From NCBI RefSeq assembly GCF_020905345.1, contig NZ_JAJJMO010000001.1:868001-932000 (forward strand): a stretch of 64,000 nt of DNA, given 5' to 3'. Shown here in pieces: positions 13,048-36,742 of the stretch; position 1 is the stretch's first letter; every line of letters begins with the position of its first letter. This stretch comes from Flavobacterium pisciphilum. Lineage in GTDB: Bacteria; Bacteroidota; Bacteroidia; Flavobacteriales; Flavobacteriaceae. The notes beneath the pieces are model-generated. The model was not told the origin of the DNA. It saw only the letters and a list, made by a program, of their open reading frames with translations, and searched no databases. A program made the position numbers and the translations under genes.

Positions 13048-13048
13048 C

Positions 13049-13069: not shown

Positions 13070-13150
13070 AGATATGGAATCTTATTATTAAATAAGAAGT
13101 AAATTTAAAATTGAAAGAAAAAGAAGTACAAAATCAGTCAGAAATTTCAC

Positions 13151-18580: not shown

Positions 18581-19004
18581 TTTCCTCAATCCAAATAGCG
18601 ATGGTTCCGGTTATTTCGGTATAAAGCAGGTCAAAATCATAACCGTAGGCGAAATCATCGGTTAGCTCATAATTATTAAAAACAGGCTCGCAGATTGGAA
18701 ACATTTTAAGAGCGAATGGTCTTAGCTCCTCGTCAGCCATTACGGTGTCAAACTCGTTACAGACTACCTGAAAAACAGTATCGAATTTGGAGAAGTACAA
18801 GCCTTCAAACAAGATGTAGTTGGCTATTTCATCGCATTGCTCAATAGCGTTTCCAGAGCGAAAAGCCCCGTCATAAGCATTGGCAGCCCACGAAGAACGT
18901 TGCTGTATAAATTTCTCGTCGTTTGCTTTCTCAGGAAAGCTGGTGTTTAATAATTCTTGTAATCGTAATCTGAAATACGATAGGTCTTTTTGCTGTGTAT
19001 CCAT
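18567..19004 (-). CDS. DUF1896-family protein
   Basis: A 145-residue acidic, soluble protein with no signal peptide. It matches the DUF1896 family by its N-terminal [20 protein letters not shown], the [17 protein letters not shown] segment and the closing [13 protein letters not shown]. In Bacteroidota ICEs this family is found directly upstream of the large methylase-helicase, as here, and the two genes overlap by 14 nt, indicating translational coupling. The function of the family is unknown. The tight link suggests that it acts with the helicase in element DNA processing (inference). Confidence 0.85.
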
Positions 19005-19170
19005 GCTCTATTTTGTTTTGAATTTTACTCGAACTCAAAATTATAGCGATAGATAGCAGCCTTTATAATTGTGGTAGTATTTGGCTTTGAGAGGTAGGTT
19101 TTGGCGTAAACATAATAGGCGAGGCAGCCGAATACAGATTGGTTTTGATTAAATTTGACGATTAAACAAT

Positions 19171-20796: not shown

Positions 20797-20833
20797 TTTA
20801 ATCCCTGTCAAAACAAGGATTAAATTAAGCTCT
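20788..20833. terminator. bidirectional terminator with both genes' stop codons in its stem
   Basis: AGAGCTTAATTTAATCC (20788-20804) pairs perfectly over 17 bp with GGATTAAATTAAGCTCT (20817-20833). The stop codon of the plus-strand cargo gene (20794-20796) and that of the minus-strand ORF6N gene (20825-20827) both lie inside the arms. Confidence 0.8.
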
Positions 20834-21706
20834 ATTCAGTATTTGCAGCATCCTACCTACCTCAATATCCATTCTCGAAAAGGCAAACCATTTTTTGCCC
20901 AGATCTTTGAGGGAAGCTCCGATATGATAGAGTTCTGTATCGTCAATAATTAAAAAACGGTCGTGGGCATCTGTAAAATTTTTAACTTCAATGGGAGGAT
21001 ATTGACAGTTGTACCGTTGTAAATCCAGCCGTAGCTGATTACTTATGTTTTTGGTATAGATGATAGCGGTTACTTCAGTAGTTCGTTTTCCCAATAAAGT
21101 CAGCACCGTGTCGTCCACATAATTGTCAAGCAGGATAATGGAATGGTTAGCGCTTCGGATGATATCCGATACAAAAGTGTAAGCATCAAAGATTTGTCCG
21201 TTGTAGAAAATGCCTTTTTCGCTATGGAGCTTATCACTTTCTAAAGCCTTAAAAATCTCTTCAAATTTTTGGTCGGTTTGTAGTTGTTTTAATTCGATAT
21301 TCTCCAAACGCTGAAACAGTGAAGCATTGCTGATAAGGATTTTACGCATTTCTACAAAGGCATTCATTATCTCGATGCTTACCCTTATAGCAACAGTGCT
21401 TTTTAGTACACCGGAAAGCATTGCTATTCCTTGTTCGGCAAATACAAAGGGCAGGTATTTTCGGTGCTGACCTCTACCTGTATTTAAGGTCACAAATTGT
21501 GACCTTAAAACTTCCCACTCCTCGGATGTTAGCTGAAAACAGAAATTTTCGGGGAAACGTTCTGCATTACGCTTTACAGCTTGGTTGAAAACCTTAGTTT
21601 CAACCTGATAAATACTAGCAAGGTCGGTATCCAGCATCACCTGTTTTCCTCTGATGCTGTAAATCCTGTTTTCTATCTCTTTTTGTGGAATGATATTATT
21701 TTCCAT
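20825..21706 (-). CDS. ORF6N (KilA-N type) DNA-binding protein with C-terminal PLD-like domain
   Basis: A 293-residue protein. The first ~115 residues are an ORF6N domain (IYSIRGKQVMLDTDLASIYQVETKVFNQAVKRN, then FPENFCFQL and RKYLPFVFAEQGIAMLSGVL), a DNA-binding fold of phage and element proteins. Residues ~115-160 are a helical linker. The C-terminal ~125 residues (FVSDIIRSANHSIILLDNYVDD..., then DAHDRFLIIDDTELYHIGASLKDLG) resemble a single phospholipase D-like module, with HDR in place of the usual HxK. It is coupled to topB by a TAATG overlap (one base shared). It probably acts in element maintenance or exclusion; catalytic activity is doubtful. Confidence 0.8.
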   Translation of the reverse strand: MENNIIPQKEIENRIYSIRGKQVMLDTDLASIYQVETKVFNQAVKRNAERFPENFCFQLTSEEWEVLRSQFVTLNTGRGQHRKYLPFVFAEQGIAMLSGVLKSTVAIRVSIEIMNAFVEMRKILISNASLFQRLENIELKQLQTDQKFEEIFKALESDKLHSEKGIFYNGQIFDAYTFVSDIIRSANHSIILLDNYVDDTVLTLLGKRTTEVTAIIYTKNISNQLRLDLQRYNCQYPPIEVKNFTDAHDRFLIIDDTELYHIGASLKDLGKKWFAFSRMDIEVGRMLQILNRA

Positions 21707-23793
21707 TATTTCTGTTTGGGTTTATTCTTTTCAAATTCAAATGAAGTACTGCAATCTGCATTCAATACGATAAAAGCATCAAACTTTTTCCCTGCTTTGC
21801 TTTTCATCCCTTTGATAAGATTGGTTTTTCCTTTGTTGACAAGGTTTTCAATCTCAGCTATACTAATTTGCAGCTCACAAACATTCCGGAACTGAATCCA
21901 ATTACAAACCTCATCGGGACATTTCACAATTTTATCACGGATAATCAATTGTTGGCTTTTGCATTTTGGGCAAATCAATTTCGGTAAATTGTTTGTAGCG
22001 ATGGAGGTTTGCAACAATTCATTGGTAATAGATTTTGTATAAACTTCCATTTCCTTGTGAAATGTTTCTGCATCAGCTTCGTTGTTTTCAATTTTCTGCA
22101 ACGCCAATTCCCATTCGGCAGTCATGGCTACATCAGCAATTTTTCGGTCTTTTACCAACTCGTACACTTGCAATCCTTTTTCCGTAGGGATTAGAGATTT
22201 CTTTTCTCGCTGAATATAATTACGGGTAAACAGCGTTTCAATGATGGTGGCTCTTGTTGCCGGAGTACCGATACCGATATTTTGCAAAGCTTTCCGTTCT
22301 TCCTCGTTTTCGATTTCCTTTCCCGCGGTTTCCATTGCCGATAAAAGCCCTGCCTCGGTATAAAGTACAGGCGGTTTGGTTTTCTTTTCCAAAACGATCG
22401 CTTCTTTAATTTTCAGTTCATCACCCTTTTTCAATTCGGGCAAATCTTGTATAGGTTCGGTATCGTCTTCCGTAAAGCTACCCTTAATGGCACGCCAACC
22501 TGCTTCTAAAATTTTACAACCTTTTGCTGTGAAATCATAATGAGCGGTCTGTAATGAAACATCGGTAATCTCTTTGACACAAGCTCCCGAAATAGCTTCG
22601 AGTAAACGAAAGGCAATCATATCGTAAACGGCATTTTCGTCTGCACTCAAAACAGATGGTATTTTGTCCGTAATCAATAATCCGTGATGATCGGTAACTC
22701 GCAAATCGTTTACGATACGTTTATTGAAACGTCCCCATTTAATTTTTGATAAGGCTGTTTTGCAAACTTCTCTGTTTTGTAAGGCTCTTACGAGGTTCGC
22801 AATTTCAGCCCATACATCTTCTGGAATATACTTGCTACCGGTACGTGGATAGGTAATGAATTTCTTTTCGTAGAGGCTTTGGGCAATATTCAGCGTTTTT
22901 TCGGCAGAAAGGTTCAGTTTTTTATTCGCTTCCTTTTGCAAACCGGTAAGGTCAAATAATAAAGGAGGCTGTTCGGTAACAGTTTTACTTTCTACTGAAG
23001 TAATGCTTACTGCATTACCGTTTCTTTCGATAGATTTTAAGGTATCATCTGCCTGCTGTTTATCCTGCCATCTGGTGGTAGAAATACTTTTAAATTCAAT
23101 TTGCTCTTTATGATGCAATAACTGAATCTGCCAGTATTTCAGTATGGAGAAATTTTTGTTATCTAAATAACGTTTACAGATTAAAGCAAGAGTTGGCGTT
23201 TGCACACGTCCAAGAGAATAAATGCCGTTGCTAGCGGTGATACTCAACGCTTGTGTGGCATTGATGCCTACGAGCCAATCGGCACGGCTTCTACCTTGGG
23301 CTGCCTGATACAATCCGTCAAATTCCTTTCCACTTTTCAGGTTGTCAAAACCTTGCTTGATGGCTTTTTCGGTAAGTGAGCTTATCCAAAGGCGCTCAAA
23401 GGGTTTTCTACAATTCAGATATTCATAGATGTAGCGAAAAATAAGTTCGCCCTCACGACCAGCATCGGTAGCAACAATAAGGCTTTCACTTTGGTTGAAC
23501 AGTTTCTCAATGACTTTCAACTGTTTTAAAGCACCTGCATCTGCGGTATAACCTTTGTCTTTTTTTACTTTTCGAACGGTAAGCATAAACGGATTTGGGA
23601 GGATTGGCAAGGCGGTTTTGTCAAATCCCGAAATCCCATAATCTTCGGGCATTCCCAAACCTATCAGGTGTCCGAATGCCCAGGTAACAAAATAGCCGTT
23701 ACCTGTAAGATAGCCATCTTTTTTATCGGATGCTCCTACAATTCCGGCTATTTCTCTTGCTACGCTTGGTTTTTCTGCAATAATTGTCTTCAT
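21706..23793 (-). CDS. topB: type IA DNA topoisomerase (TopB/topoisomerase III-like)
   Basis: A 695-residue topoisomerase that relaxes or decatenates DNA by single-strand passage. The Toprim domain is visible as KTIIAEKPSVAREIA at the start and VATDAGREGELIFRYIYE (~110-127). The active-site tyrosine is Tyr315 in FITYPRTGSKYIPED. A C4 zinc-ribbon-like module (CPKC...CPDEVC) lies near the C-terminus, followed by a basic tail. Copies like this are standard in Bacteroidota ICEs, where a related protein (exc of CTnDOT) assists excision. It starts 3 nt after the upstream DUF3945 gene and overlaps the ORF6N gene by one base, so all belong to one operon. Confidence 0.93.
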   Translation of the reverse strand: MKTIIAEKPSVAREIAGIVGASDKKDGYLTGNGYFVTWAFGHLIGLGMPEDYGISGFDKTALPILPNPFMLTVRKVKKDKGYTADAGALKQLKVIEKLFNQSESLIVATDAGREGELIFRYIYEYLNCRKPFERLWISSLTEKAIKQGFDNLKSGKEFDGLYQAAQGRSRADWLVGINATQALSITASNGIYSLGRVQTPTLALICKRYLDNKNFSILKYWQIQLLHHKEQIEFKSISTTRWQDKQQADDTLKSIERNGNAVSITSVESKTVTEQPPLLFDLTGLQKEANKKLNLSAEKTLNIAQSLYEKKFITYPRTGSKYIPEDVWAEIANLVRALQNREVCKTALSKIKWGRFNKRIVNDLRVTDHHGLLITDKIPSVLSADENAVYDMIAFRLLEAISGACVKEITDVSLQTAHYDFTAKGCKILEAGWRAIKGSFTEDDTEPIQDLPELKKGDELKIKEAIVLEKKTKPPVLYTEAGLLSAMETAGKEIENEEERKALQNIGIGTPATRATIIETLFTRNYIQREKKSLIPTEKGLQVYELVKDRKIADVAMTAEWELALQKIENNEADAETFHKEMEVYTKSITNELLQTSIATNNLPKLICPKCKSQQLIIRDKIVKCPDEVCNWIQFRNVCELQISIAEIENLVNKGKTNLIKGMKSKAGKKFDAFIVLNADCSTSFEFEKNKPKQK

Positions 23794-23796
23794 ATT

Positions 23797-25260
23797 TTAC
23801 ACTTTTCTACCTTTAGATTTTGCAGGTGCTTTTGGTTTTTCCTGTTGATCCTGCTGTTGCTTATTTTTTGGGGTTTGTTGTCCCGTTTTCAAAGGTTCCT
23901 TGATATTCTTGGTTGCTTCGTTGGTTTTGCCCTCCGAATTAACGGCAGTCTGCGTTTTATGAGCTTCGGTAGGTTTTGCCTGTGCTTTGAGTTTATCGGG
24001 ATTTTGAAACGAGAAATCTGTTTTGCCCGTTTCTTTATTGAGTGTGATGTAACCCTGATATTTTTGTCCTTTTTTATCTATCAAACCATCTAAATAAACC
24101 GTTTGCCCTGCTTTGAACTTGTTGTACTGCTCATCATCGAGTTCCTTTCCTCTAAATGTTTTCGGAACTTCTTGCGATTGGCTCTGTTCCTTAGCCTGCC
24201 CAGTATTTTGAGTTTGCTGATTGCTTTTGCTTCGATCAAATAGAAACTCAACATATCTTTTATCGGCATTGAACTGAACCGTTGCACTAAATTCATCGCC
24301 TTTTTTAGAAATCATTCCGTCTAATTTTAAAGGCTTACCTTCCATTAAAGTCTGTTTTTGTTCGTCGTTTAATTTTACTCCTTTAATTTCATTGGGAATT
24401 TTGATGTATTCCGTTTTTAGGGCGATCAATTCGTTTGTTAGCCTGTCCACACTGATAATAGAGGGCATCTGTTCGTTTGTTTTAGTATTGGTCAAATTAA
24501 CCACACGTCCCATGTTACCCGTTTCCAACAAGTTTTTCTTGTCCTCATCGGTAAACTTGTGTCCGAAGAACTCAAAATTGAGGTTAGGTTCTTTTCTGAT
24601 ACCGTGTATCGCTGCCACAACCATTCCGTCTGGTGTGGTCTGTAAAGACAAGCGAGCATCTGTACGAACAATAGCACCGCCAAGATTTACGCTGACAGGT
24701 ACAAGGTCATTGGTTTTGTAGCCTCTTAACAAAGGATCTAAAAGGTTCATTTTTTCAAGACGTTCTTTACCTAATCCAAGATTGCTCATTGTTTCCCAAT
24801 CAATCTGTTCTGGTTTAAAGCGGTATTCGCTGGTTTCCGGTGTTGTCTGTGTTGTTTCCATATTATTTTGATTTTCTTGTTGATTTTCTTTTTCGGGTTC
24901 GATTTTTACTTCGTTCTTTTTCATTTCCTTCTCGCCTTCGGGCGTGGGATGATCGACCTGCTTTTGCATTTCCTTAGCTTTATCTAAAGCCTCATCGGCA
25001 GGGACTTTGAAGAATGAAAAATGGGTAGGATTTTTTAGCTGCCGCAGAAAGTTGGAAAAGAAATTCGAGAACAGATCTCCGTGTTTGTCCACGTGCATAA
25101 ACTGGCTTTGATTTTCCTTTGTAGGATCGGTAGTCTTCAACTTGCCATTTTCGTCAATACCTGTAACTGCTTGTATTTTATTCTTTTGCTTATCCAGTAC
25201 CAATAATATATCCGATAGCTGTTCTGGGGCAGGTTGCTTGTTTTCTGTTTCTTCGCTCAT
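23797..25260 (-). CDS. DUF4099/DUF3945-domain protein of the conjugative element
   Basis: A 487-residue soluble protein of low-complexity, charged, Gln/Lys-rich composition. An N-terminal segment (ILLVLDKQKNKIQAVTGIDENG) is followed by a charged linker, a DUF4099-like middle (~145-300, starting YRFKPEQIDWETMSNLGLG) and two DUF3945-type repeats: KLNDEQKQTLMEGKPLKLDG (~305) and ELDDEQYNKFKAGQTVYLDG (~378), each followed by a short beta-rich unit. The C-terminal ~90 residues are a disordered K/Q/T-rich tail ending in KSKGRKV. These domains are found almost only in Bacteroidota mobile elements. It sits directly upstream of topB. Its molecular role is unknown. Confidence 0.85.
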   Translation of the reverse strand: MSEETENKQPAPEQLSDILLVLDKQKNKIQAVTGIDENGKLKTTDPTKENQSQFMHVDKHGDLFSNFFSNFLRQLKNPTHFSFFKVPADEALDKAKEMQKQVDHPTPEGEKEMKKNEVKIEPEKENQQENQNNMETTQTTPETSEYRFKPEQIDWETMSNLGLGKERLEKMNLLDPLLRGYKTNDLVPVSVNLGGAIVRTDARLSLQTTPDGMVVAAIHGIRKEPNLNFEFFGHKFTDEDKKNLLETGNMGRVVNLTNTKTNEQMPSIISVDRLTNELIALKTEYIKIPNEIKGVKLNDEQKQTLMEGKPLKLDGMISKKGDEFSATVQFNADKRYVEFLFDRSKSNQQTQNTGQAKEQSQSQEVPKTFRGKELDDEQYNKFKAGQTVYLDGLIDKKGQKYQGYITLNKETGKTDFSFQNPDKLKAQAKPTEAHKTQTAVNSEGKTNEATKNIKEPLKTGQQTPKNKQQQDQQEKPKAPAKSKGRKV

Positions 25261-25333
25261 AATCTGAATATTTAAAGTTCAAATACCGAAAGTAGTTGAA
25301 GCCTTTGCTTGATTGCAGGATTTGGCAGTCAAA

Positions 25334-25356
25334 GGCAGTGTTTGTCACCCATTGGC
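25334..25356. repeat. short repeat, copy 1, at the 3' end of an HTH gene
   Basis: GGCAGTGTTTGTC followed directly by ACCCATTGG. The same two blocks recur, 11 nt further apart, at 26060-26092 upstream of the HTH pair. Possibly a binding site for one of the two HTH proteins. Confidence 0.4.
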
Positions 25357-25653
25357 TTTCAGTTTAGGTAAGGGAGGATTAAAACTTTCTCTTATGAATT
25401 GATGCACATCGGATAGTTTGTAGTACAGTTTACCACTGATGGTATAATAAGGCAGCTTGCCAATAGAGCGGTAGCGCTGTAAAGATCGGTTGCTGATTTT
25501 CAGCATTTGTAATAAATCCTGATTGTCCAGTAATTCTTCCCCGTCAATGCTGTTGCGTTTCTTTTGTAAACTGTCAATATTATCGCTCAGCATATCCATT
25601 CGCTCCATGATGCGTTCCATCCACGCCAAAAATTCCATTCTGTCAATATTCAT
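25345..25653 (-). CDS. helix-turn-helix (excisionase-like) DNA-binding protein
   Basis: A 102-residue protein with a helical N-terminus (MEFLAWMERIMERMDMLSDNIDSLQKK, written here in part) and a winged HTH of the MerR/excisionase type at ~40-90: LLDNQDLLQMLKISNRSLQRYR, then GKLPYYTISGKLYYKLSDV. Pairs of such proteins open the ICE backbone operon in Bacteroidota and are thought to act as recombination directionality or regulatory factors. It follows the other HTH gene by 11 nt and precedes the DUF3945 gene by 84 nt. Confidence 0.85.
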   Translation of the reverse strand: MNIDRMEFLAWMERIMERMDMLSDNIDSLQKKRNSIDGEELLDNQDLLQMLKISNRSLQRYRSIGKLPYYTISGKLYYKLSDVHQFIRESFNPPLPKLKANG

Positions 25654-25664
25654 AGCCCTACGTT

Positions 25665-26018
25665 TTACGGTTTTCTCAATTTTAGTTTTCTTCCTTTTTC
25701 GACATAGCTTTTTCCTTTTGCCATAAGTTCTTTTACAAATTCATCACTGCTTTGAATGGCATTTGCATTCAGCATATCCTTGATTGATCCGATGGTATAG
25801 AAATATTGTCCGTAGATTTTTGAGTAAGCTATTTCGCCTTTGGTACGCATTCGCCACAAAGTCTTTTCGCTGATATGCAGGTATTGGCATACCTCGTGAT
25901 TGTTGAGCCAGAGATTATCATAACTTGTATCTTCTAGTCTTTTCAGATAATCGAAAATGGCATTGATACGATTGTCAAGTTGTTGCCAAGCTTCTTCTTC
26001 AATAGTGATTATTTTCAT
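25665..26018 (-). CDS. helix-turn-helix DNA-binding protein
   Basis: A 117-residue relative of the next gene. It has a helical N-terminus (DNRINAIFDYLKRLED) and an HTH at ~38-95: WLNNHEVCQYLHISEKTLWRMR, then KGEIAYSKIYGQYFYTIGSI. The C-terminus is basic (GRKLKLRKP). It is the first gene of the minus-strand backbone operon, with the repeat-bearing 250-nt region 26019-26267 upstream, and is a candidate regulator of element transfer or excision. Confidence 0.85.
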   Translation of the reverse strand: MKIITIEEEAWQQLDNRINAIFDYLKRLEDTSYDNLWLNNHEVCQYLHISEKTLWRMRTKGEIAYSKIYGQYFYTIGSIKDMLNANAIQSSDEFVKELMAKGKSYVEKGRKLKLRKP

Positions 26019-26059
26019 TACACAGCATTTAAAGTTTACTATGCAAAGTTGCTAAGGGT

Positions 26060-26092
26060 GGCAGAGTTTGTCCGCCAATGCTTACCCATTGG
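26060..26092. repeat. short repeat, copy 2, upstream of the HTH operon
   Basis: GGCAGAGTTTGTC and ACCCATTGG, the blocks seen at 25334-25356, here separated by CGCCAATGCTT. A related inverted motif, TTGCCAATTGGCA, is at about 26191-26203. The cluster lies in the promoter region of the HTH operon and could be its operator. Confidence 0.4.
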
Positions 26093-26213
26093 TTTGGCAC
26101 TTTTTTTAAAATTTTTAGAATAGAGAAAATCCCTTACTAGATAAGGTTTTTGAAGAATTGGAGATGTTTTTAGATGGAAATTCGCCAGCGTTTGCCAATT
26201 GGCAGATATGGGC

Positions 26214-26243
26214 AAAAAAAAAGCAGCACACAAAATGTACTGC
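26214..26243 (-). terminator. Rho-independent terminator after the second rteC gene
   Basis: On the minus strand GCAGTACA pairs with TGTGCTGC (one G-T pair) around TTTTG and is followed by nine T. It begins 25 nt after the rteC stop. Confidence 0.8.
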
Positions 26244-26267
26244 CTGTAAATTCTCACTTGAATAAGG

Positions 26268-27113
26268 TTAAAGGTCTTTATCCATGTATTCTTCTAATGA
26301 AGTTTTAAGCTGATCTAAAAATGAAGTTCGGGTGCCGCTTCGGGTTTTCATGCGGTGGAAAGCGTGGTGCACATCATTTAAGGGAGTTCGGAATAATACT
26401 TGGAAAAGCAAAGCTAATTTGCGGATGCCCATTTTTCCGTATGCTATGGAGTTTGAGGCATAAAGGGCGTAAATTAATTCGATAAGTGCATTTTGAGAAT
26501 TTGTCCAGGAAATATCCTTGTTGGTATCGCCATTCAGGAAGATGGTATCGGAATTTTCTTCGGGATTGATTTTGGCGAGCAGATATGTGTAAAGTAATTC
26601 GTTGGCAATAATGTAAGCAATCTTGTTGTCGTAATAAGTGGAGAAACTAAGGTCAATTTCAAACACACCGCTTTTAAGTCCATCGTGATAATTAATTTGC
26701 CCAAGCCTAAAATAACTATGATCACGATCTGTTCTGCCTGCACGATAGTACCTGTAAAAATCCTCATTACAGATACTTTCTTTATATTCTGCTTTGAGAT
26801 TTTTGAGCTGATTTTCGTAAAAACATTGGTGTATTTTTCCGGTGCTAACAGGGCAGGTGGTTTCAATGCGAAACACCTTGTTGTAATAAATGAGTTTGCC
26901 TAAAACTTGCGGTTTGATGTTCTTGAAAAAATCAATTTCCTGTTGCTCATTTTTAAATCCAAATTGGAGGACTTGGTCTTTTATAGAACTCAACATGTCC
27001 TTTAGGAACAAAGTCATTTGATATGTTTCATTTGCTGTCGGCAATACTTCAGAAGTTAGTTTATCTTCCTTATGCCTGATTTGCGCTAATATTTTACTCA
27101 ACACGATTTCCAT
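26268..27113 (-). CDS. RteC-domain protein (second copy)
   Basis: A 281-residue RteC-family protein with the ordered motifs EIDFFKNIKPQVLGKLIYYNKVFRIET, FYRYYRAG, the IDLSFSTYYDNKIAYIIANELL core and SWTNSQNALIELIYALYASN. It is the outermost backbone gene at this side, with its own terminator, and is read in the same direction as the HTH operon. The family founder controls excision and transfer functions of CTnDOT. The other RteC gene is 14 kb away in opposite orientation. No integrase or recognisable attachment site follows at its upstream side. Confidence 0.9.
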   Translation of the reverse strand: MEIVLSKILAQIRHKEDKLTSEVLPTANETYQMTLFLKDMLSSIKDQVLQFGFKNEQQEIDFFKNIKPQVLGKLIYYNKVFRIETTCPVSTGKIHQCFYENQLKNLKAEYKESICNEDFYRYYRAGRTDRDHSYFRLGQINYHDGLKSGVFEIDLSFSTYYDNKIAYIIANELLYTYLLAKINPEENSDTIFLNGDTNKDISWTNSQNALIELIYALYASNSIAYGKMGIRKLALLFQVLFRTPLNDVHHAFHRMKTRSGTRTSFLDQLKTSLEEYMDKDL

Positions 27114-27447
27114 AGCATAGTCTTTTTTAAGGGTTATTACTATTTGTTTCGGAGTTGCAACTATTGTTGATATACCAAAATCAAATTTTGTGAATATTCT
27201 TCAGACCATTTCCACAGATGAACCCAACTTGGGAAAGATTTATTTTCAAGAAACTGTATTTTGGATAAACAAAAAAGGTAAAGTCTTGGTGTACTTTACC
27301 CTTTATTTATTAAATTTGCTGTATTGATTTACAAGGTAATCGAGTGAAAGTAAGCGCAATGAGCACCATTACTAAATCGTTACCGATAGAGTTTTCCACT
27401 CTCGTAAACTACTCTTAATAAGCTGAGTTGGGCTTAATTAATCTTTT
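27114..27447. other. gene-free junction between conjugative-element genes and the NRPS locus
   Basis: No credible reading frame is seen on either strand apart from short fragments. The stretch holds one terminator hairpin (27271-27300). The gene content changes sharply here, from ICE backbone to a secondary-metabolite locus, so an element end may lie in it, but I could not find a matching direct repeat in the window. Confidence 0.5.
27271..27300 (-). terminator. terminator downstream of the EthD-like gene
   Basis: GGTAAAGT and ACTTTACC form an 8-bp stem around an 8-nt loop. On the minus strand it is followed by six T. It is ~150 nt past the stop of the EthD-like gene. Confidence 0.65.
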
Positions 27448-27642
27448 TCAAGAAAAAAGATGCCCAATAATTTTATACGAAATAACCTCATCAGATGCCG
27501 CTGCAGTATTCTCCTCAATAGCAATTCCTTTTAATACCGCTCCAAAAATTGATTTAGATAGTGGCATGTGATTATTTAAATAATAAGGTAAATCAAACCA
27601 ATCATTTTCTTTAACAGGATAAAATACAGTTACTTTAATCAT
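27448..27642 (-). CDS. EthD-family protein, shorter than usual
   Basis: A 64-residue product that matches the N-terminal two thirds of the EthD (dimeric alpha-beta barrel) family: MIKVTVFYP, YYLNNHMPL with the family histidine, and a closing YKIIGHLF. Family members are ~100 residues and continue with a helix of the FDSLEAF type; here the frame stops after HLFS within a run of T, followed by CTTGAAAAAG. It may be truncated or frameshifted. It lies 15 nt after the methyltransferase gene on the same strand and so belongs to the same transcript. EthD-like proteins often accompany oxidative or cyclisation steps in biosynthesis; a role here is inference. Confidence 0.55.
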   Translation of the reverse strand: MIKVTVFYPVKENDWFDLPYYLNNHMPLSKSIFGAVLKGIAIEENTAAASDEVISYKIIGHLFS

Positions 27643-27657
27643 ATCTCTAGTATTTAA

Positions 27658-28683
27658 TTATACTAATTTTTCACATTCGATAATACCCGAAATTTCAGTA
27701 TTGGTCTCAATTAATCTTATAAACGACAATCCTACTTGTTTTAACAGCGATTTAAATTCACTCAGCGTTCGTTCTTTTCCTGTAGTCAATGCCATAAGAT
27801 TTAAATCCAATAACTTTCCTGCATGCGGACCATTTAATTCATCTGAAATAACCGAATCTATAATTAATAATTTCCCTCCAACTGGCATAGCTTTATAACA
27901 AACTTTCAGAATATCAATTGCTTCTTTATCATTCCAATCATGTATTACCCATTTGGTCAGATAAAGATCTGCATTGGCTGGTATTTCATCAAAGAAACTT
28001 CCTCCTGAAACGGAGACTCTGTTTTTTAAATCATCTGGGATTTGTTTAGCAGTAGCTTCTACAACATAAGGTTCATCAAAAATAATCCCTTTACTCGATG
28101 GAGAAGAATAAAGTACTGTAAATAACATTGCTCCATTCCCTCCACCTATATCCACAATGGTTTTGTAAGGAGAAAAATCATACGTATCTATAATTCCTTT
28201 TAATACCGCTCCAGACACACCTGCCATTGCTTTCATTAGATTAGCACCAGCGTCAGGATTATCTTTGTAATATTCCCAAACAGACTTTTCATAAACATCA
28301 TCAAAAGATACTTTCCCAGTTTGTACTCCATAGGTTAAGTTTCCAAAAGCTGGATAATGCTCTCCTAGATTTGCCAAAGCCCAAGGCTTAATAGAACCAG
28401 GAACATCTGTTAATAAGGTTGCTCCCAAATCATTGATTTTAAATTTACCATTAGGTAACTCTTCAAATATACCTACACTTGCCGTAGCACGTAATAATCG
28501 ATATAATGAAGTCTCATCTGATTGAGATTCTTTTGCTAGTTCTGATAAAGATTTGGGTTCATCAACAAGTAAATCTGCAATTTCTAATTTAGCTACGGAG
28601 TGGATTGCACAAGCAACCCAGTATCCACTAATTAATTCATACATCTTAAATGTAAGCTCAGGATTCTTTGGGAGATTTTTCAT
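27658..28683 (-). CDS. SAM-dependent O-methyltransferase (acetylserotonin/hydroxyneurosporene type)
   Basis: A 341-residue methyltransferase of the plant-type/ASMT O-methyltransferase class. The N-terminal winged-helix dimerisation domain (~15-90) contains LAKESQSDETSLYRLLRATASVG, written here in part as ETSLYRLLRA. The SAM-binding motif I is VDIGGGNG (177-184). The catalytic-base region is WVIHDWND with His248. It is divergent from the NRPS gene (115-nt shared upstream region) and followed by the EthD-like gene. It is a good candidate for tailoring a phenolic or enolic oxygen on the NRPS product, for instance a tyrosine-derived ring; the substrate is inferred only from the neighbourhood. Confidence 0.9.
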   Translation of the reverse strand: MKNLPKNPELTFKMYELISGYWVACAIHSVAKLEIADLLVDEPKSLSELAKESQSDETSLYRLLRATASVGIFEELPNGKFKINDLGATLLTDVPGSIKPWALANLGEHYPAFGNLTYGVQTGKVSFDDVYEKSVWEYYKDNPDAGANLMKAMAGVSGAVLKGIIDTYDFSPYKTIVDIGGGNGAMLFTVLYSSPSSKGIIFDEPYVVEATAKQIPDDLKNRVSVSGGSFFDEIPANADLYLTKWVIHDWNDKEAIDILKVCYKAMPVGGKLLIIDSVISDELNGPHAGKLLDLNLMALTTGKERTLSEFKSLLKQVGLSFIRLIETNTEISGIIECEKLV

Positions 28684-28798
28684 ATTAAATAATTGTATAT
28701 TTTTGATTACTAACGATTTAAAATTAAAAAAAAGTTTTTAAATTGCAGTTAATTCCTATTTATTTTTTTATTAATTAATCTTAACCCATATTAATTTT
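28684..28798. promoter_or_regulatory. divergent promoter region between methyltransferase and NRPS genes
   Basis: A 115-nt very AT-rich stretch must hold both promoters. I found no clean TAnnTTTG on either strand, so expression may rely on an activator or an alternative sigma factor. Confidence 0.35.
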
Positions 28799-31700
28799 AT
28801 GAAAAATCCCCCCCATCTACCTACTACAATTCTGACTTTATTGAATCTAATTTCTAGTCAACATCCTCAAAAGACAGCTCTTGTTTTTGAAAATCAGAAT
28901 ATAAATTATGAAGATCTAAACTTACAGTCTAATAAGCTGGCAAATTATTTAAATACGAAAGGTGATTTCTTAGATATTCCTATCTGTTTTTCTTTAGAAC
29001 AGTCTATTGACAAAGTAATTGTTATGCTCGCTATCTGGAAAGCAACAGGAGCTTATGTATCTCTCAATCCTCTATATCCAGAGACAAGACTGAAGTATAT
29101 AATAAATGATACCAACAGCCCTATTTTGATTACGACCAAAGCTTTATCCCCAAAATTTAATTATTTTAATAAAGAAATTATTTTAATTGATGATCTGGAA
29201 GAAGCAAAAAGCATCAAAGAGAACTCGGATGAAGAATTACCCGAAAACGGAATATATGACGGATTAGCTTATCTTACTTATAACTCAGAAACTAGTGATT
29301 CACCCAAAGCTATTATAACTGAACACAGAGGACTTATCAATTTTGTAAAGTATTTTAATGAACTTTTAGACAGCAATCTTGATGATAAAACCTTAAATAT
29401 TTCCTCTTCTAATTTTGATAGCGTTGTTCTTGACCTATGGATTCCTCTTTCACTAGGACTCACTGTGCATTTATACCCTAATAACAATATCGATAATGAT
29501 GTTTTACTGGATTTTAATATCCTCAATAATCAACTTATTCCAGTTCCTAGCGGTGAAATTGGAGAATTACACATTGGTGGAATTCAAGTGCTCCCTGATT
29601 ATTTAAACCAGCCAAAACTTAATACTGAGCGATTTATATATTACACAAATTCATCTGGGCAAAAAAAAAGAGTTTTTAAAACAGGAAACCTTGTTAGGAT
29701 GACTTCCAACGGTAATATTGAATTTATCAGTAAAGCTCCTCCTCCGCAAATTAAAGCTACGAAGTTTAAAGTTGAACTATCTGAAAATCAACATAAATTA
29801 ATAGAAATTTTTGAAAATCAGGCAAAAAAAACTCCCGATAAAGTAGCGCTTAGCTTAATAGGGAATACTATTTCTTATAAAGAACTACACCAAAAATCCA
29901 ATAAAATTGCGAATCAGTTAATCGCAATGGGAATCAAAAATAATGAATTTGTTGCCTGTTATCAAGATCAATCGATAGAAAGAGTTATTAGTTTATTAGG
30001 AATAATAAAAGCTGGAGCTGCATACGTACCTTTAGATACTAGCCATCCCCTTGAACGAATTAATATAATACTCAACGATACCAACCCTTCATTTCTTATT
30101 ACTACCGAAAATCAAATTGACATAAGTAAAAAGGTGCACATTCCTGTGCTACATATTGAGGATATGCTCAGTTATATATCTGATAATGGAAATGAAAAAG
30201 ATAGTTTTACCGATACGCATACTCCATCAGATCTTATGTATGTAATCCATACGTCGGGAACAACAGGAAAGCCAAAAGGAGTATTAATTGAACATAAATC
30301 GGTAAGCAATTTTATTACCGAATACGGAAAATTATTAGAAATAGACGCTACTGATCGTACGCTACAATTCTCCCCTTACAATTTTGACGGATCCATTATT
30401 GATCTTTGGATACCACTAACAAAAGGAGCAACAATACATTTATATCCTAACAATAAATTATTAGGAGACTCACTATCTGACTTTATCTCCTTACATAATC
30501 TTACTGTTATCCCATACATCTCCCCATCAGTACTTTCTACCATTCCACTTTCAATAACGTTTCCTGATTTACGAGTCATCGGCACAGGTGGAGAAGTTTG
30601 TCCTATAGCCATTCGTAATCATTGGATGCATCAGGTTAAACTTGTAAATGGATATGGTCCAACTGAAGCCACAGTTGCTGTCAATAATTATGTGTTTGAT
30701 AATAGCCACCCTGCAAATACAATTGGTAAACCAATTACCAATATGAAATTCTATGTTCTGGATCGTAATATGAAGGAGGTTCCTATTGGAATTACAGGAG
30801 AGCTTTATGTCTCTGGTATACAATTATCAAGAGGCTACCTTAATGAACCTGAACTCACTGCTGAACACTTTATTACAAATCCTTTTATAAAAAAAGAAGA
30901 CAATGAAAGTTCAATTTATAATCGATTATACAAAACAGGAGATTGGGTAAAAATATTGCCTGACGGAATGATTGAATATATTGGTAGAGAGGATCATCAG
31001 ATTAAAATAAGAGGATATCGCATAGAAGTTTCCGAAATAGAAAAAGCACTTCAGCAAATCAAAGGTATAAAAAATGTTGCCATTCAGATGCATAAAGATT
31101 CAGAAGACATCATATCGCTCCGAGCCTTTTTTACTGGGAAAATAAAAACCACAACTATAAGAAATGAACTCAGCAAAAAGCTTCCTGCATATATGATTCC
31201 AAGTGAAATTTTCGCAATAGAGGCTATCCCTGTTACTGCTAATGGAAAATTAGATTTGAATGCCCTTTCTGTATTTGCAGAAAAAAACCTTGAAGAACAG
31301 GAAGGTACTATTGAACAAACAGAATCATTTATAGCTCCCCACACCGAATTACAAAAACAACTAGCTGTATTATGGAAATCTTTTCTAAAAGTAAAAACGG
31401 TAGGAATAGATGATAACTTTTTTCATTTTGGTGGCAACTCTATTTTAGCTTATAAACTGGTTTCTTCTATCCGTAAAGACCTTCATATATTCCTTCAAAT
31501 TTCTGATTTGTTTTTATACCCAACTATTAACGAACTAGAAAATTATATCCGCACTAAAGAAGCTAATACCCTAGAAGAAGATATTAGTGTAAATAGTCTT
31601 GAAGAGCCTATAAAATTATCTTCACAACAACAAAGTTTATGGTTTCTAGACAAACTTCATGGAAGCTTACCCTATCATATAAGTGCATTATATCCTGTAA

Positions 31701-34700
31701 GTAATACTATTTCTGCGCCCACACTTGAGAAAGCATTCCGATTACTAATGCAACGTCACGGTGCACTGAGGACTATTATTTCTGAAGACGAAAATACTGC
31801 TTATCAGTTTTTGATTAGTTCAGATAATTGGATGTTACAACAAATTTATAAATCAGATTCATTGCAAAAATTAATAGATATTCCTTTTGACTTAGAAAGG
31901 GATTATATGTTAAGAGCCTATCTTATTCATGAATCTAACCAGAACATATCGCTATTTGTTGTTATCCATCATATTGCTACAGATGCTTGGTCGATGCCAT
32001 TAATAATTAATGAATTAAATGCTATTTATCTAGAAATTCTAGAAAAGAAAAAACCAGTAATTAACAATTATCCAATACAGTATAGAGATTATGCACATTG
32101 GCAATTTAATAAAACACGACAGAATAAAATAAGCACTAGCACTGACTTTTGGAAAAACTATCTACAAGATGTTCCTGTGTTACAAGTAGCCCATGATTTT
32201 CCAAAACAGCATTTACATTCCATTAGTGGTCAACAATATCACTTTACAATTCACTCCCAATTAGCTTCAGATTTACAAAAATTTTCAAGAGAACAACACG
32301 CCACATTATACATGACTCTTTTATCGGCTTTTGGATTATTGATGCAACATTATAGTGGTCAAAACGATATTTGTATAGGTAGCCCAGCTGCAAACAGAAC
32401 ACCACATACGGTAGATACTACAATTGGCTATTTTGTAAACATGCTCCCTATTCGCATAAAAATTGATGGGAATCCTATTTATACCAACTTCTTAGAAGAA
32501 ATAAAAAAAATGCTGTTAACCGTATTTCAACATCAAGAAGTTCCCTTTGAAACAATTATAAATCATGCCATTAAAGATCGATTTGCTGGTTATAATCCGT
32601 TATTTCAAACTGTATTTATATTGCAGGATGCTCCTGAAGAAAATAGTCAATCAGGACCTATAGATAGTAACAACTTAAAATGGATTTATAACGGAAAATC
32701 AAAATTTGATCTTCAGTTTGAAGTCACTCCATTATTAAATGGTTTAGATGTTACAATTGAATATACCGATGCCTTATTTAAAGAAAGTACCATTCTACAA
32801 ATGGCAAAAGATTTTCAAATCATTCTAGAATCAATCGTTAAGGAGCCTGAAAAAAAAATCGGAGATTTTGAAATTTTACTGGAAACACATGAGCAAAATG
32901 AAATTTCAGAATTGGAAGAAATTCAATCTGAAAAAACTTTGGTAGAAATGTTTGAAGACCAAGTAAAAAGGAATCCTAAAAAAACGGCACTACGCCTAAC
33001 AGGAATGAGCATTACCTACAAGGAATTACATGAAAAATCCAATAAAATAGCAGATCAACTAATCGCAATGGGTATCAAAAAAAATGAGTTTGTTGCCTGT
33101 TATCAAGATCAGTCTATTGAGAGAGTCATTTCATTATTAGGTATTATAAAAGCTGGTGCTGCATATGTCCCTCTAGATACCAGCTACCCTATTGAACGAA
33201 TTAATGTAATAATCAAAGATACGAATCCGCTCTTATTGATTACAACCGAAAAACGAATCGACATAAGCACAAAAGTACACCTGCCTGTATTAGATATTGA
33301 GCACATGATTAATTACATACCCGATACAGAAAACAATAAATACAGCTATATTGATACCCATACTCCATCAGATTTAATATATGTAATTCATACATCGGGA
33401 ACAACTGGAAAACCAAAAGGAGTTTTGATTGAACACAAAGCAGTAAGTAATTTTATTGCCGAATACAGTACGCTGTTAGAAATAAATATTGACGACAGTA
33501 CCTTGCAATTCTCTCCTTACAATTTTGACGGGTCTATCATTGATCTTTGGTTACCGCTAACAAAAGGAGCTACAGTACATTTATATCCAAATAATAAATT
33601 ACTGGGCGAATCGCTCTCTGATTTTATCAGTTTACACAATATTACAGTTGTTCCTTTTGTCTCTCCTTCAGTTCTTTCTACAATTCCACTTTCAGTACAT
33701 TTTCCAAATTTAAGAGTTATTGGTACTGGTGGAGAAGCTTGTCCATCACTAATTAGCAAACATTGGATGCATCAACTCAAACTTGTAAATGTATATGGTC
33801 CAACTGAAACTACTGTTGCTGTAAATGAATATGTATATGATGATAAACATCCTTCTAACACATTAGGTAAACCAATTAAAAACATGAAATTTTATGTTCT
33901 TGATCGGTATATGCGAAAAGTACCTGTTGGAGTTATCGGTGAGCTTTATATCTCTGGCATACAATTATCAAGAGGATATCTCAATGATCCTGAACTTACA
34001 GCTGAGCGTTTTATTACTAACCCATTTATAAAAGCTACTGATAAAAAATCTATTTACAATCGATTATACAAAACTGGAGATCAGGTAAAAGTATTACCCG
34101 ATGGCATGATCGAATACATTGGTAGAGAAGATCATCAGGTCAAAATAAGAGGATATCGCATAGAGATTAGCGAAATCGAAACTGCGCTTCAGCAAGTAAA
34201 TGGTATAAAAAACGTAGCAGTTCAAGTTCATAAAGCATCCCAAGATATACTATCGTTACGTGCTTTTTTTACTGGCGAAATAAAGATTTCGATTATAAAA
34301 AATGAACTCAGTAAAAAGCTTCCAGCGTATATGATTCCAAATGAAATTTTTGCAATAGACGCAATTCCTGTCACCGCTAATGGAAAATTAGATATGGAAG
34401 CGCTTTCATTATTAGCAGAGAAAAACCTTGAAGAGAAAGAGGAAGAAATACCGCTTAACTCCTACGAAGAAATAATCAGGGATATTTGGAGTGACGTTTT
34501 ACAACGCAGGATTACCTCTTTAGAAGATGATTTTTTTCATCTAGGAGGACATTCTTTACTGCTTACTAAGCTTTATAACAGAATATCCAAACATTACCCC
34601 AATAAAATATCTTTAAGCGAATTGTATATAAACAATACCGTCCGAAAACTAGCCTTACTAATCGAAGAAAGGGATTCTGATACCCATGTCGATCAATATG

Positions 34701-35920
34701 GATTAGGAATGGATCCATTAAGTGATGAAATTAAAAAAGATGCCTATCTTGACCCTTCAGAGTTTAATCCTAACCTAGAAAATAAAGGTGACTTTGTGAA
34801 TCCTAAATTCATATTACTAACAGGAGTCACAGGTTTTGTAGGCGCAAATATGCTTGCTGAGTTTTTAAAAACTACTACTGCAATTATTTATTTACTAATT
34901 CGTGCCAACAATGAAAAACATGCCCAAGAACGCTTACTTGAAACGCTAAATGACCAATTACTCCCTCTGAGTTTGTACGATAAAGAACGTGTAAAATTAC
35001 TTCCAGGTGATCTATCAAAACCTCATCTTGGATTGTCTCCTGAAACTTACGATGCCCTTACACAAAACATTGATGTCATTTATCATGCTGGAAGCGCCGT
35101 AAATTTTATTCAGCCTTATTCTTATATGAAAGCTGCAAATGTTGATGCATTACGTACTGTGATTCATTTTGCAACAACTAGCAAACTCAAACAGATTTGT
35201 TTGTTATCTACCATTGGCGTATTCAGCTGGGAACATCATTTTACAAAGCCTGATCTTATTATGGAAAAGCAATCTATAGAATCGGCATTTAAATACCTGA
35301 GCCGTGATATGGGATATGCACAAAGTAAGTGGGTCATGGAAAAAATTGCAATGCAAGCAATAGAACAAGGCATTCCAATTATTATTTTTAGATTGGGTTA
35401 TGCTTTTTGCCACAGTACATCTGGAGCTACAGCCAAATACCAATGGTGGGGTTTATTAGTTAAAACCTGTGTAGAATTAAAAGCCTACCCAATTCTGCTG
35501 GAACAAAAAGAAGAGCTAGTTTCTGTAGATTTTATCAGTAAAGCCATTGCACATATCTCTAAAAATCCAAAAGCTACTGGAGAGATATTCCATTTAAGCC
35601 CTGCTCCAAAAGATAATATTCCTGTGATTAATTTTTTCGAGAAACTTCGATCAGAATTTGATATAGAGCTAACTCCTCTGCCTTATCATGAGTGGATGAA
35701 CCTTTGGGAAAATGATGAGAATAGTCCGTTATATCCGCTCTTGAGCTTGTTTAAATTTAAAGTATATGATAATAAATCGATTATAGAAATTCATCAGAAC
35801 ACGCCTGAATTTGATATCACTAATACACTAGATTTTATAAAAGATAGTGGCATCGAAACTACAGTTGTTAACCGAGAGATTCTTGAAGCTTATTGTATTT
35901 ATTTGGGTATTCTAAAATAA
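28799..35920 (+). CDS. two-module NRPS with terminal reductase: (A remnant)-A-T-C-A-T-R
   Basis: A 2373-residue cytoplasmic nonribosomal peptide synthetase. Residues ~10-330 are a degenerate adenylation (A) domain. A1 is ~335-830 (HTSGTTGKPKG, NGYGPTE, YKTGD, GREDHQIKIRGYRIE, NGK). T1 carries Ser881 in FFHFGGNSI. The condensation domain is ~935-1365 with active-site HHIATDAW (1057-1064). A2 is ~1378-1880 with the same motifs. T2 carries Ser1919 in FFHLGGHSL. The thioester reductase is ~2003-2373, with NADPH-binding GVTGFVG (2009-2015) and the triad Thr2138, Tyr2173, Lys2177. This order should join two amino acids and release a dipeptide aldehyde or alcohol. The staphylococcal AusA synthetase has the same A-T-C-A-T-R order and gives pyrazinones. 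A1 and A2 are very alike, suggesting duplication. No PPTase is in the window. Confidence 0.92.
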   Translation: MKNPPHLPTTILTLLNLISSQHPQKTALVFENQNINYEDLNLQSNKLANYLNTKGDFLDIPICFSLEQSIDKVIVMLAIWKATGAYVSLNPLYPETRLKYIINDTNSPILITTKALSPKFNYFNKEIILIDDLEEAKSIKENSDEELPENGIYDGLAYLTYNSETSDSPKAIITEHRGLINFVKYFNELLDSNLDDKTLNISSSNFDSVVLDLWIPLSLGLTVHLYPNNNIDNDVLLDFNILNNQLIPVPSGEIGELHIGGIQVLPDYLNQPKLNTERFIYYTNSSGQKKRVFKTGNLVRMTSNGNIEFISKAPPPQIKATKFKVELSENQHKLIEIFENQAKKTPDKVALSLIGNTISYKELHQKSNKIANQLIAMGIKNNEFVACYQDQSIERVISLLGIIKAGAAYVPLDTSHPLERINIILNDTNPSFLITTENQIDISKKVHIPVLHIEDMLSYISDNGNEKDSFTDTHTPSDLMYVIHTSGTTGKPKGVLIEHKSVSNFITEYGKLLEIDATDRTLQFSPYNFDGSIIDLWIPLTKGATIHLYPNNKLLGDSLSDFISLHNLTVIPYISPSVLSTIPLSITFPDLRVIGTGGEVCPIAIRNHWMHQVKLVNGYGPTEATVAVNNYVFDNSHPANTIGKPITNMKFYVLDRNMKEVPIGITGELYVSGIQLSRGYLNEPELTAEHFITNPFIKKEDNESSIYNRLYKTGDWVKILPDGMIEYIGREDHQIKIRGYRIEVSEIEKALQQIKGIKNVAIQMHKDSEDIISLRAFFTGKIKTTTIRNELSKKLPAYMIPSEIFAIEAIPVTANGKLDLNALSVFAEKNLEEQEGTIEQTESFIAPHTELQKQLAVLWKSFLKVKTVGIDDNFFHFGGNSILAYKLVSSIRKDLHIFLQISDLFLYPTINELENYIRTKEANTLEEDISVNSLEEPIKLSSQQQSLWFLDKLHGSLPYHISALYPVSNTISAPTLEKAFRLLMQRHGALRTIISEDENTAYQFLISSDNWMLQQIYKSDSLQKLIDIPFDLERDYMLRAYLIHESNQNISLFVVIHHIATDAWSMPLIINELNAIYLEILEKKKPVINNYPIQYRDYAHWQFNKTRQNKISTSTDFWKNYLQDVPVLQVAHDFPKQHLHSISGQQYHFTIHSQLASDLQKFSREQHATLYMTLLSAFGLLMQHYSGQNDICIGSPAANRTPHTVDTTIGYFVNMLPIRIKIDGNPIYTNFLEEIKKMLLTVFQHQEVPFETIINHAIKDRFAGYNPLFQTVFILQDAPEENSQSGPIDSNNLKWIYNGKSKFDLQFEVTPLLNGLDVTIEYTDALFKESTILQMAKDFQIILESIVKEPEKKIGDFEILLETHEQNEISELEEIQSEKTLVEMFEDQVKRNPKKTALRLTGMSITYKELHEKSNKIADQLIAMGIKKNEFVACYQDQSIERVISLLGIIKAGAAYVPLDTSYPIERINVIIKDTNPLLLITTEKRIDISTKVHLPVLDIEHMINYIPDTENNKYSYIDTHTPSDLIYVIHTSGTTGKPKGVLIEHKAVSNFIAEYSTLLEINIDDSTLQFSPYNFDGSIIDLWLPLTKGATVHLYPNNKLLGESLSDFISLHNITVVPFVSPSVLSTIPLSVHFPNLRVIGTGGEACPSLISKHWMHQLKLVNVYGPTETTVAVNEYVYDDKHPSNTLGKPIKNMKFYVLDRYMRKVPVGVIGELYISGIQLSRGYLNDPELTAERFITNPFIKATDKKSIYNRLYKTGDQVKVLPDGMIEYIGREDHQVKIRGYRIEISEIETALQQVNGIKNVAVQVHKASQDILSLRAFFTGEIKISIIKNELSKKLPAYMIPNEIFAIDAIPVTANGKLDMEALSLLAEKNLEEKEEEIPLNSYEEIIRDIWSDVLQRRITSLEDDFFHLGGHSLLLTKLYNRISKHYPNKISLSELYINNTVRKLALLIEERDSDTHVDQYGLGMDPLSDEIKKDAYLDPSEFNPNLENKGDFVNPKFILLTGVTGFVGANMLAEFLKTTTAIIYLLIRANNEKHAQERLLETLNDQLLPLSLYDKERVKLLPGDLSKPHLGLSPETYDALTQNIDVIYHAGSAVNFIQPYSYMKAANVDALRTVIHFATTSKLKQICLLSTIGVFSWEHHFTKPDLIMEKQSIESAFKYLSRDMGYAQSKWVMEKIAMQAIEQGIPIIIFRLGYAFCHSTSGATAKYQWWGLLVKTCVELKAYPILLEQKEELVSVDFISKAIAHISKNPKATGEIFHLSPAPKDNIPVINFFEKLRSEFDIELTPLPYHEWMNLWENDENSPLYPLLSLFKFKVYDNKSIIEIHQNTPEFDITNTLDFIKDSGIETTVVNREILEAYCIYLGILK

Positions 35921-35975
35921 TTACAATACTAGATTTAATAGCAACGAACCTGTTCTATTCCAAATTAAATCCCCA

Positions 35976-36014
35976 AAACAAGGCAGCTATTTACGATAAA
36001 TGGCTGCCTTGTTT
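35976..36014. terminator. strong terminator after the NRPS gene
   Basis: AAACAAGGCAGC pairs with GCTGCCTTGTTT, and the pairing extends inward through TATTTA/TAAATG with one G-T pair. The hairpin begins 55 nt after the NRPS stop codon. Confidence 0.8.
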
Positions 36015-36100
36015 ACTTAATTAATTGAGAGTTAAAATTTTTAATTGCATAGATTTTTTTATCTTTTCCTTTTATTTACAACCTTTAACTTCATAGTATA

Positions 36101-36742
36101 ATGAAAAAAAATATTCCTCTTGATATTCTAGAAAAATGGCTTAAGGGTTGGGCGCTATCAAGAGAATTGCCTCTGCCTATTAAATATAAATCTGGTTATA
36201 TGATAGATGTAGGCTACGAAAATCAGAAAAAGCGATATGTTTTTACAGAACCTAACAATGATTATATTCAGTTATCAAAATCTATTGATGAACCTTGGGT
36301 ATATTTAAAGGCTTGTACCGCACCTGATAAATTAAAAAGCATGCTATCCAAAAAATGGGTAATTGAGCCTCAAGGTTATATGATGTCATGCTCTACACAA
36401 ATGAGTTTTTCAAATCGTAACCTATCAGATGATTATAAGTTTGAATTTGATAACTATAATTCAACTTTTGTAATCCGAATTGTTACCAAAAATGGCGAAC
36501 TAACTTCTATCGGTCGTGTTGTACTCGTTGATGATTTGGCCATTTATGATAGAATCTCTACCGAAGAAAATCACAGAAGAAAAGGGCTTGGTACTATATT
36601 GATGAAAGAACTTGAAAAAATTGCATTAGCCAATAATGTTTCTAATAATTTTCTCGTTGCTACAGAAGAAGGTAAATCACTTTATCTGTCTTTAGGATGG
36701 GAAATTTATAGCCTTTATTCCTCAGCGGTTATCATTGATTAA
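36101..36742 (+). CDS. GNAT-family N-acetyltransferase
   Basis: A 213-residue protein whose C-terminal ~90 residues are a GNAT acetyl-CoA-binding fold: GRVVLVDDLAIYDRISTEENHRRKGLGTILMKELE contains the RRKGLG (Q/RxxGxG/A-like) pyrophosphate loop at ~162-167, followed by a helix and YLSLGWEIYS. The N-terminal ~110 residues (WALSRELPLPIKYKSGYMIDVGY) form an extra domain of unknown role seen in some Bacteroidota GNATs. It is separated from the NRPS by a strong terminator, so it is probably not part of that transcript. It could serve resistance or tailoring, but nothing in the sequence shows it. Confidence 0.85.
   Translation: MKKNIPLDILEKWLKGWALSRELPLPIKYKSGYMIDVGYENQKKRYVFTEPNNDYIQLSKSIDEPWVYLKACTAPDKLKSMLSKKWVIEPQGYMMSCSTQMSFSNRNLSDDYKFEFDNYNSTFVIRIVTKNGELTSIGRVVLVDDLAIYDRISTEENHRRKGLGTILMKELEKIALANNVSNNFLVATEEGKSLYLSLGWEIYSLYSSAVIID

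Follow-up and report, generated by a model that had tools for sequence, protein, structure and literature searches.

A Flavobacterium pisciphilum peptide synthetase with module 1 apparently taken over by a copy of its second adenylation domain

The Flavobacterium pisciphilum DNA analysed here, a stretch of 64,000 nucleotides that we call the window, contains an AusA-like NRPS gene in which a copy of the adenylation (A) domain of module 2 (A2) appears to have taken over module 1, leaving the old module 1 domain (A1) as a fossil. Both modules would then use the same residue, and the product would be a pyrazinone, probably O-methylated; we give this reading as a whole a probability of about 0.6. 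Replacement of A domains is one route by which natural peptides diversify, and one that engineers seek to imitate; finished swaps conceal the steps by which they arose. Here the donor, the copy and the superseded domain all lie within one gene, with intact relatives available for comparison, and one junction lies close to the A8 hinge, the other within the A-T linker.

Layout of the synthetase gene and its relatives

The NRPS gene (28799..35920, forward strand) is an open reading frame with no internal stops across 2373 codons, and its 2373-aa product has the layout (dead A1)-A(copy of A2)-T-C-A2-T-R. Pfam finds three AMP-binding stretches, a Condensation domain (residues 938-1366), two PP-binding domains and an NAD_binding_4 domain (2007-2250), and no starter C domain. 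All of the domains are on the forward strand, with the fossil A1 at 28799..29779 (residues 1 to about 327), the working module 1 A domain at 29789..31294 (about residues 331-832), the native T1 carrier at 31346..31558 (Ser881), the C domain at 31610..32896, the A2 domain at 32924..34423, the T2 carrier at 34451..34678 (Ser1919), and the thioester reductase (R) domain at 34811..35905. The A-domain motifs TSGTTGKPK (at 485 and 1532) and YGPTE (619 and 1666) and the carrier motifs FGGNSI (877) and LGGHSL (1915) are present, and the R domain has both the TGxxGxxG and YxxxK signatures (TGVTGFVG at 2008; YAQSK at 2173, with Tyr2173 and Lys2177). It scores 294 bits against TIGR01746, above the cut-off of 213.35, and is the only one of six TIGR01746 matches in the host genome (5.46 Mb in two contigs) to do so. 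The reading frame, Pfam, TIGR01746 and the motifs all bear out the original prediction of an A-T-C-A-T-R NRPS preceded by an A-domain remnant.

Full-length relatives were drawn from the best 120 of 7992 candidates scored in a homologue search, with a size filter of 1900-2100 aa. Thirty-nine of these 120 (the protein itself set apart) are 1952-2086 aa long, each with one A1 and one A2; they are 47-65% identical to the window protein over 83-86% of its length and have the same domain order, and their named sources include Flavobacterium, Chryseobacterium, Pedobacter and Sphingobacterium. Across T1, C, A2, T2 and R, one of the 266 family-invariant residues is changed in the window protein, the glycine of the condensation motif HHxxxDG, which here reads HHIATDA (residues 1057-1063). 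All 39 relatives have HHxxxDG and none has HHxxxDA, which we count against the main reading, and of the prediction that all catalytic motifs are intact, the carrier serines and R-domain motifs stand, whereas the HHIATDAW that it cited is unlike the motif of the relatives. We considered the G to A change as an inactivation and dropped the idea, because HHxxxDA accounts for 18 of 282 motif matches across 80 other NRPS proteins.

The comparison with AusA, the aureusimine NRPS of Staphylococcus, fits in anatomy and in the published route: the A-T-C-A-T-R order with intact working motifs (the C motif being the HHxxxDA variant) and reductive release are alike, and a two-residue product is expected. 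However, the AusA equivalog NF047350, although the top NCBIfam match, gives 1281.7 bits against a cut-off of 2500, and we therefore regard the protein as apparently AusA-like in its working and do not file it as AusA. It also differs from AusA in its extra dead A1, its A2-derived module 1 A domain and the O-methyltransferase alongside, and in place of an intact adjacent PPTase, which for AusA we take to be AusB, there is a stub of 22 aa only.

Replacement of the module 1 adenylation domain

The fossil is 64.3% identical to the A1 of the relative P0002 (P0002_A1) as against 35.6% to its own A2, and a tree of A domains places it in the A1 group with P0002-P0005 (support 0.997). It has an 89-residue internal gap and no C-subdomain, and in the alignment its P-loop and motifs A5, A7 and A8 are altered or gone. 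It keeps 25 of the 66 residues that are invariant in the A1 of the 39 relatives, with 14 substituted and 27 deleted; with P0006 and P0007 (which have an A2-type core) excluded, the remaining 37 relatives have 91 A1-invariant residues, 36 of which are kept, 19 substituted and 36 deleted. By region, the fossil has lost 27 of 49 invariants in the A1 core and 15 of 17 in the A1 C-subdomain; twelve relatives handled likewise as a control have lost 0-3 and 0-1, respectively. We read the remnant as the original A1, now a fossil without its active site that remains, in frame, as the N-terminal part of the protein.

The working A domain of module 1 is 77.7% identical to the A2 of the same protein, where A1 and A2 of the relatives are 34.9-55.5% identical (median 38.5%), and in the tree the two are sisters (0.944), nested in the A2 group of Flavobacterium (0.999). 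The working domain keeps 99 of 100 A2-invariant residues (A2 itself keeps all 100), and its C-subdomain is 77.7% identical to that of its own A2 and 37.3% to that of P0002_A1. Because the fossil groups with A1 and the working domain is a copy of A2, it is A2 that has taken over module 1. The original prediction had noted the remnant without recognising in it the old A1, or in the working A1 a copy of A2, and the expected product changes as a result.

As read from the alignments, a whole A2 is flanked by the A8 hinge of the old A1 and by the native A-T linker, an arrangement that may have come about by one insertion, or by an insertion and a later deletion. In the proposed order of events the copy would have been inserted before T1, taking over module 1, and the original A1 would then have lost its active site while staying attached at the N terminus in frame. 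Twenty-three derived residues are common to both A copies and absent from P0002-P0005, dating the copying to this lineage. Between the copy and A2, dN is 0.134 and dS 1.08 (Nei-Gojobori; with dS near 1 these values are approximate), and the resulting dN/dS of about 0.12 indicates that purifying selection has acted on both working A domains from the copying onward. The new A1 has accumulated 36 changes since then and A2 17.

The relatives include a second, independent case in which A1 has been replaced. Module 1 is served by an A1-clade A domain in 37 of the 39, and not in the window NRPS; in P0006 and P0007 the module 1 core is 62.3 and 60.1% identical to P0002_A2 and 36.8 and 37.6% to P0002_A1, and the C-subdomain is 59.8% identical to that of P0002_A1 in each and 32.5 and 37.3% to that of P0002_A2, the A2-type core meeting the A1-type C-subdomain at the A8 hinge. 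Taken with the window copy, this hybrid structure means that A1 has been replaced on at least two occasions in the compared set of 40 proteins.

Recombination by which a whole adenylation domain, or the portion of it that sets specificity, comes to occupy the place of another module's domain and changes the residue is described for microcystin synthetase in the available portions of PMC2174460 and PMC3640908, and for the wollamide NRPS in that of PMC9205934. These portions describe completed replacements, and none of the three texts mentions a remnant, whereas the window keeps the eroded old domain and has the donor within the same gene. PMC8097286 makes no mention of a remnant, vestigial, relic or duplicated domain, and a narrow search of the open-licence literature found no description of an attached superseded A domain. 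What is new here is a domain takeover in which the displaced domain has stayed attached.

Uneven decay of the old domain

The two parts of the fossil have evolved differently. The N-terminal 155 residues (28799..29263, forward strand) have evolved at a normal rate; the part from residue 156 onward (29264..29779, forward strand) is the catalytic part with the lost or altered motifs. In a branch test with a fixed topology and 16 sequences (the window NRPS and 15 of the 39 relatives, P0006 left out), we divided the window branch by the remainder of the tree. Residues 1-155 give a ratio of 0.0321, the stretch from 156 onward 0.1975 and the other domains 0.0136-0.0664, the fossil from residue 156 thus being about 3-15 times faster than these. 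Lineage-only changes in the window and in P0005 number 11 and 15 in the first half, 41 and 6 in the second, and 113 and 83 in the remaining protein (Fisher p 9.6e-5 between the halves, 9.0e-5 for the second half against the rest, and 0.15 for the first half against the rest). Of the invariant positions that are not deleted, the first half has 7, with 1 changed, and the second half has 48, with 18 changed. By these comparisons the catalytic half has decayed and the first half little or not at all. When P0006 is included, whose A2-type A1 stretches the A1 trees, the branch ratios are 0.0215, 0.1455 and 0.0106-0.0616.

The first half may have kept a structural role, or recombination may account for the pattern. 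The former would mean that the fossil is not merely decaying and that its first half now serves the synthetase structurally, without a catalytic function; the evidence for this is the low ratio and modest number of changes in residues 1-155 (11 against 15 in P0005), the high values from 156 onward (41 against 6), the Fisher p between the halves and the single changed invariant. The basis is small, however, at 155 residues and 7 invariant positions, and recombination with another strain would give the same pattern, so we consider a structural role possible but somewhat unlikely. In the window lineage the R domain, too, has evolved somewhat fast, with 29 lineage-only changes against 9, which we count against the main reading. 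We note that its rate and the asymmetry between the new A1 and A2 argue against a simple clock.

Neighbouring genes and the predicted product

An O-methyltransferase gene (27658..28683, reverse strand; PF08100 and PF00891) lies divergent to the NRPS and is its conserved partner, adjoining it in the window and in all three Chryseobacterium-like loci examined (L057-L059). Judged by equal length of the longest contig, 15 of the 39 NRPS relatives lie on the same contig as one of 43 close relatives of the methyltransferase, and P0017 would be the sixteenth provided that its contig (117384 bases) is that of L057. This synteny strengthens the methyltransferase link in the original prediction. Counting against the main reading are the 24 of 39 relatives that this criterion does not match to a methyltransferase; three of the four closest relatives (P0002, P0003 and P0005) are among the unmatched. 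P0004 and its methyltransferase have the adjacent F. aquidurense locus tags B0A67_15855 and B0A67_15850. Set beside the Bacteroidota clusters that combine an ATCATR synthetase with a methyltransferase, the window has the divergent PF00891 neighbour but lacks the A1-clade A domain in module 1.

The window methyltransferase is 82% identical to its F. aquidurense relative and has both the SAM motif, found in 43 of the 44 methyltransferases listed (its own included), and IHDW, found in 28 of 44. Its best solved relative is 6C5B (E 6.1e-75), the phenazine O-methyltransferase LaPhzM, which methylates iodinin, an aromatic N-heterocycle, twice according to the available part of PMC10784701; the window enzyme, whose function is a prediction from sequence, would differ from LaPhzM in substrate and pathway.

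Two ancestral cluster genes are broken, which counts against the main reading, and the whole locus could therefore be declining. The first (27448..27642, reverse strand) retains 64 aa of a small protein that has 109 and 118 aa where it lies behind the methyltransferase in two of the three loci, and its missing half has no significant match elsewhere in the window. It had been named EthD-like, a name without support since no Pfam family matches the 64-aa remainder or the L057 copy at E 0.1, or the L058 copy at E 0.01; we have rejected the proposed action of this protein on the product, which is unlikely here because the gene is truncated. The second is a PPTase, now a 22-aa stub (35950..36015, forward strand) whose counterpart follows the NRPS in L058 and L059 (E 0.053 and 0.001, respectively, with their PPTases), an intact Sfp-type PPTase lying 3′ of the NRPS in these two of the three loci. 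The predicted lack of a PPTase holds for an intact gene beside the NRPS but overlooks the stub and five ACPS-family matches elsewhere in the host genome, one of them 38.7% identical to the L058 PPTase; such ACPS-family proteins could prime the carriers.

A fragment of an integrative element (11431-27113) adjoins the cluster. We find no support for the cluster as its cargo, and the presence of the methyltransferase and NRPS together in the three Chryseobacterium-like loci speaks against it. No integrative-element genes were recognised among the ORFs listed for these loci, a minority of which were scanned, and no 12-14-base words, direct or inverted, are common to 10901-13200 and 26901-27660.

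The truncated accessory gene, the PPTase stub, the HHxxxDA motif and the adjacent mobile-element fragment could all be taken to indicate a dying cluster, its NRPS minus a domain, PPTase and small accessory gene, that makes nothing now. We consider this unlikely, given that all of the NRPS codons stay open, that a single invariant of 266 is changed in T1, C, A2, T2 and R, that the A1 copy and A2 show the low dN/dS noted above, that PPTase candidates of the ACPS family exist elsewhere in the genome, and that the methyltransferase is so similar to its F. aquidurense relative.

With positions mapped on GrsA and the mapping checked against 1amu, the specificity code of the new A1 is DGIPGGGVAK, identical to that of P0002_A2, and A2 has DGIPGGVVAK; the A1 codes of relatives are DGLPFGMVVK (P0002 and P0004) and DGLPFGIVVK (P0005). 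The A1 and A2 codes agree at 9 of 10 positions in the window NRPS as against 5-8 of 10 in the 39 relatives, so a homodipeptide is expected, with both modules predicted to load a single amino acid or two very similar ones, and a switch from hetero- to homo-dipeptide is suggested. Against the main reading we count that neither code found a labelled match and that the two A copies differ at code position 322 (G/V). All of the alignments examined for substrate prediction were to LgrA.

In the pathway that we propose for the takeover enzyme, the R domain would free the dipeptidyl thioester as an aldehyde, which would cyclise and oxidise to a 3,6-disubstituted 2(1H)-pyrazinone, by analogy with AusA, whose dipeptide aldehyde is released, cyclises and oxidises to a pyrazinone according to the available part of PMC10512218. 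The COMT-type methyltransferase would probably then O-methylate the pyrazinone, either as its hydroxypyrazine tautomer or at a side-chain hydroxyl. Plant enzymes O-methylate hydroxypyrazines, and by analogy with these we infer that the hydroxypyrazine form may be methylated here. The likely product is a pyrazinone built from two like residues, which may be O-methylated, and one NRPS with one methyltransferase makes a small, testable cluster for an O-methylated pyrazinone or methoxypyrazine.

Cyclisation of a dipeptide aldehyde requires a free amine, and a GNAT-family gene (Pfam; 36101-36742), 180 bases behind the NRPS, could cap it, which counts against the main reading. With the amine capped, for instance, the product would stay a reactive dipeptide aldehyde, a protease inhibitor, and the methyltransferase would act elsewhere. 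NRPSs with R domains do release aldehydes, as the available part of PMC10512218 describes, but this NRPS has no starter C domain, a free amine should allow cyclisation as in AusA (same source and part), and no GNAT match occurs among the 8 proteins scanned from L057-L059, and the GNAT gene is therefore not among the known partners. We regard a lasting aldehyde as quite improbable.

A bolder version of the takeover reading holds that the first 155 fossil residues have been selected as a non-catalytic part and that the switched enzyme and methyltransferase make a symmetric 3,6-disubstituted 2-methoxypyrazine. We think it rather improbable; if true, it would provide an NRPS route to methoxypyrazines in bacteria. 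A narrow search of the open-licence literature for methoxypyrazines in these bacteria led to plants, wine and food.

The ATCATR form is rare. Within the genus of the window, 11 of 398 genomes match a T-R query at E 1e-40, and only that of the window does so at full size, since the frames in the other ten run to 1022-1070 aa. The Chryseobacterium-like family has matches in 66 of 296 genomes, three of them with frames of 2037-2046 aa. Of 395 genomes drawn from the class, the window's alone matches at 1e-60, and a scan of genome contigs returned one distant locus in the Acidobacteria.

Surroundings of the synthetase gene

Upstream of the NRPS locus, the segment at 11431-27113 is a fragment of a Bacteroidota integrative element; it carries two rteC genes, an N6-methylase/helicase gene, topB, genes for DUF3945, DUF1896 and ORF6N proteins, and two HTH_17 genes, and we recognised no integrase or transfer genes in the window's ORF lists, of which a part was scanned. 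On the other side, shortly behind the NRPS stop codon and within the PPTase stub, lies an inverted repeat, AAGGCAGC...GCTGCCTT (35980-36010), which could serve as a transcription terminator; it is not among the matches listed by a separate scan. A gene for a GNAT-family acetyltransferase follows at 36101-36742, 180 bases behind the NRPS gene and on the same strand, and no GNAT match is present among the eight scanned proteins of the three Chryseobacterium-like loci (L057-L059).

Short reductase-ended proteins

Many shorter reductase-ended proteins are encoded at loci L017-L026 and L030-L056, mostly of 1021-1089 aa with one frame of 764, and their T-R (carrier plus thioester reductase) part is 36-44% identical. 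Their size suggests that these are A-T-R enzymes like PvfC/AsaC, for which pyrazinones are possible products. Within the Chryseobacterium-like family, 63 of the 296 genomes contain the short form alone, as do 10 of 398 in the window's genus.

Variation among the synthetases and methyltransferases

Two ATCATR relatives, P0002 and P0005 (2043 aa each), are probably paralogues in one Flavobacterium, because they have in common a longest contig of 1,078,725 bases; none of the 43 close methyltransferases is listed with that contig. A second methyltransferase form, about 55% identical, is present in four genomes (G1394, G1354, G1463 and G1365), where it does not share a contig with the reductase-ended genes or is separated from them by hundreds of kilobases. 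In the relatives P0006 and P0007, the A8 hinge is the junction at which the module-1 A domain passes from an A2-type core to a C-subdomain of A1 type, and both proteins have about 40 additional N-terminal residues without a match to A1.
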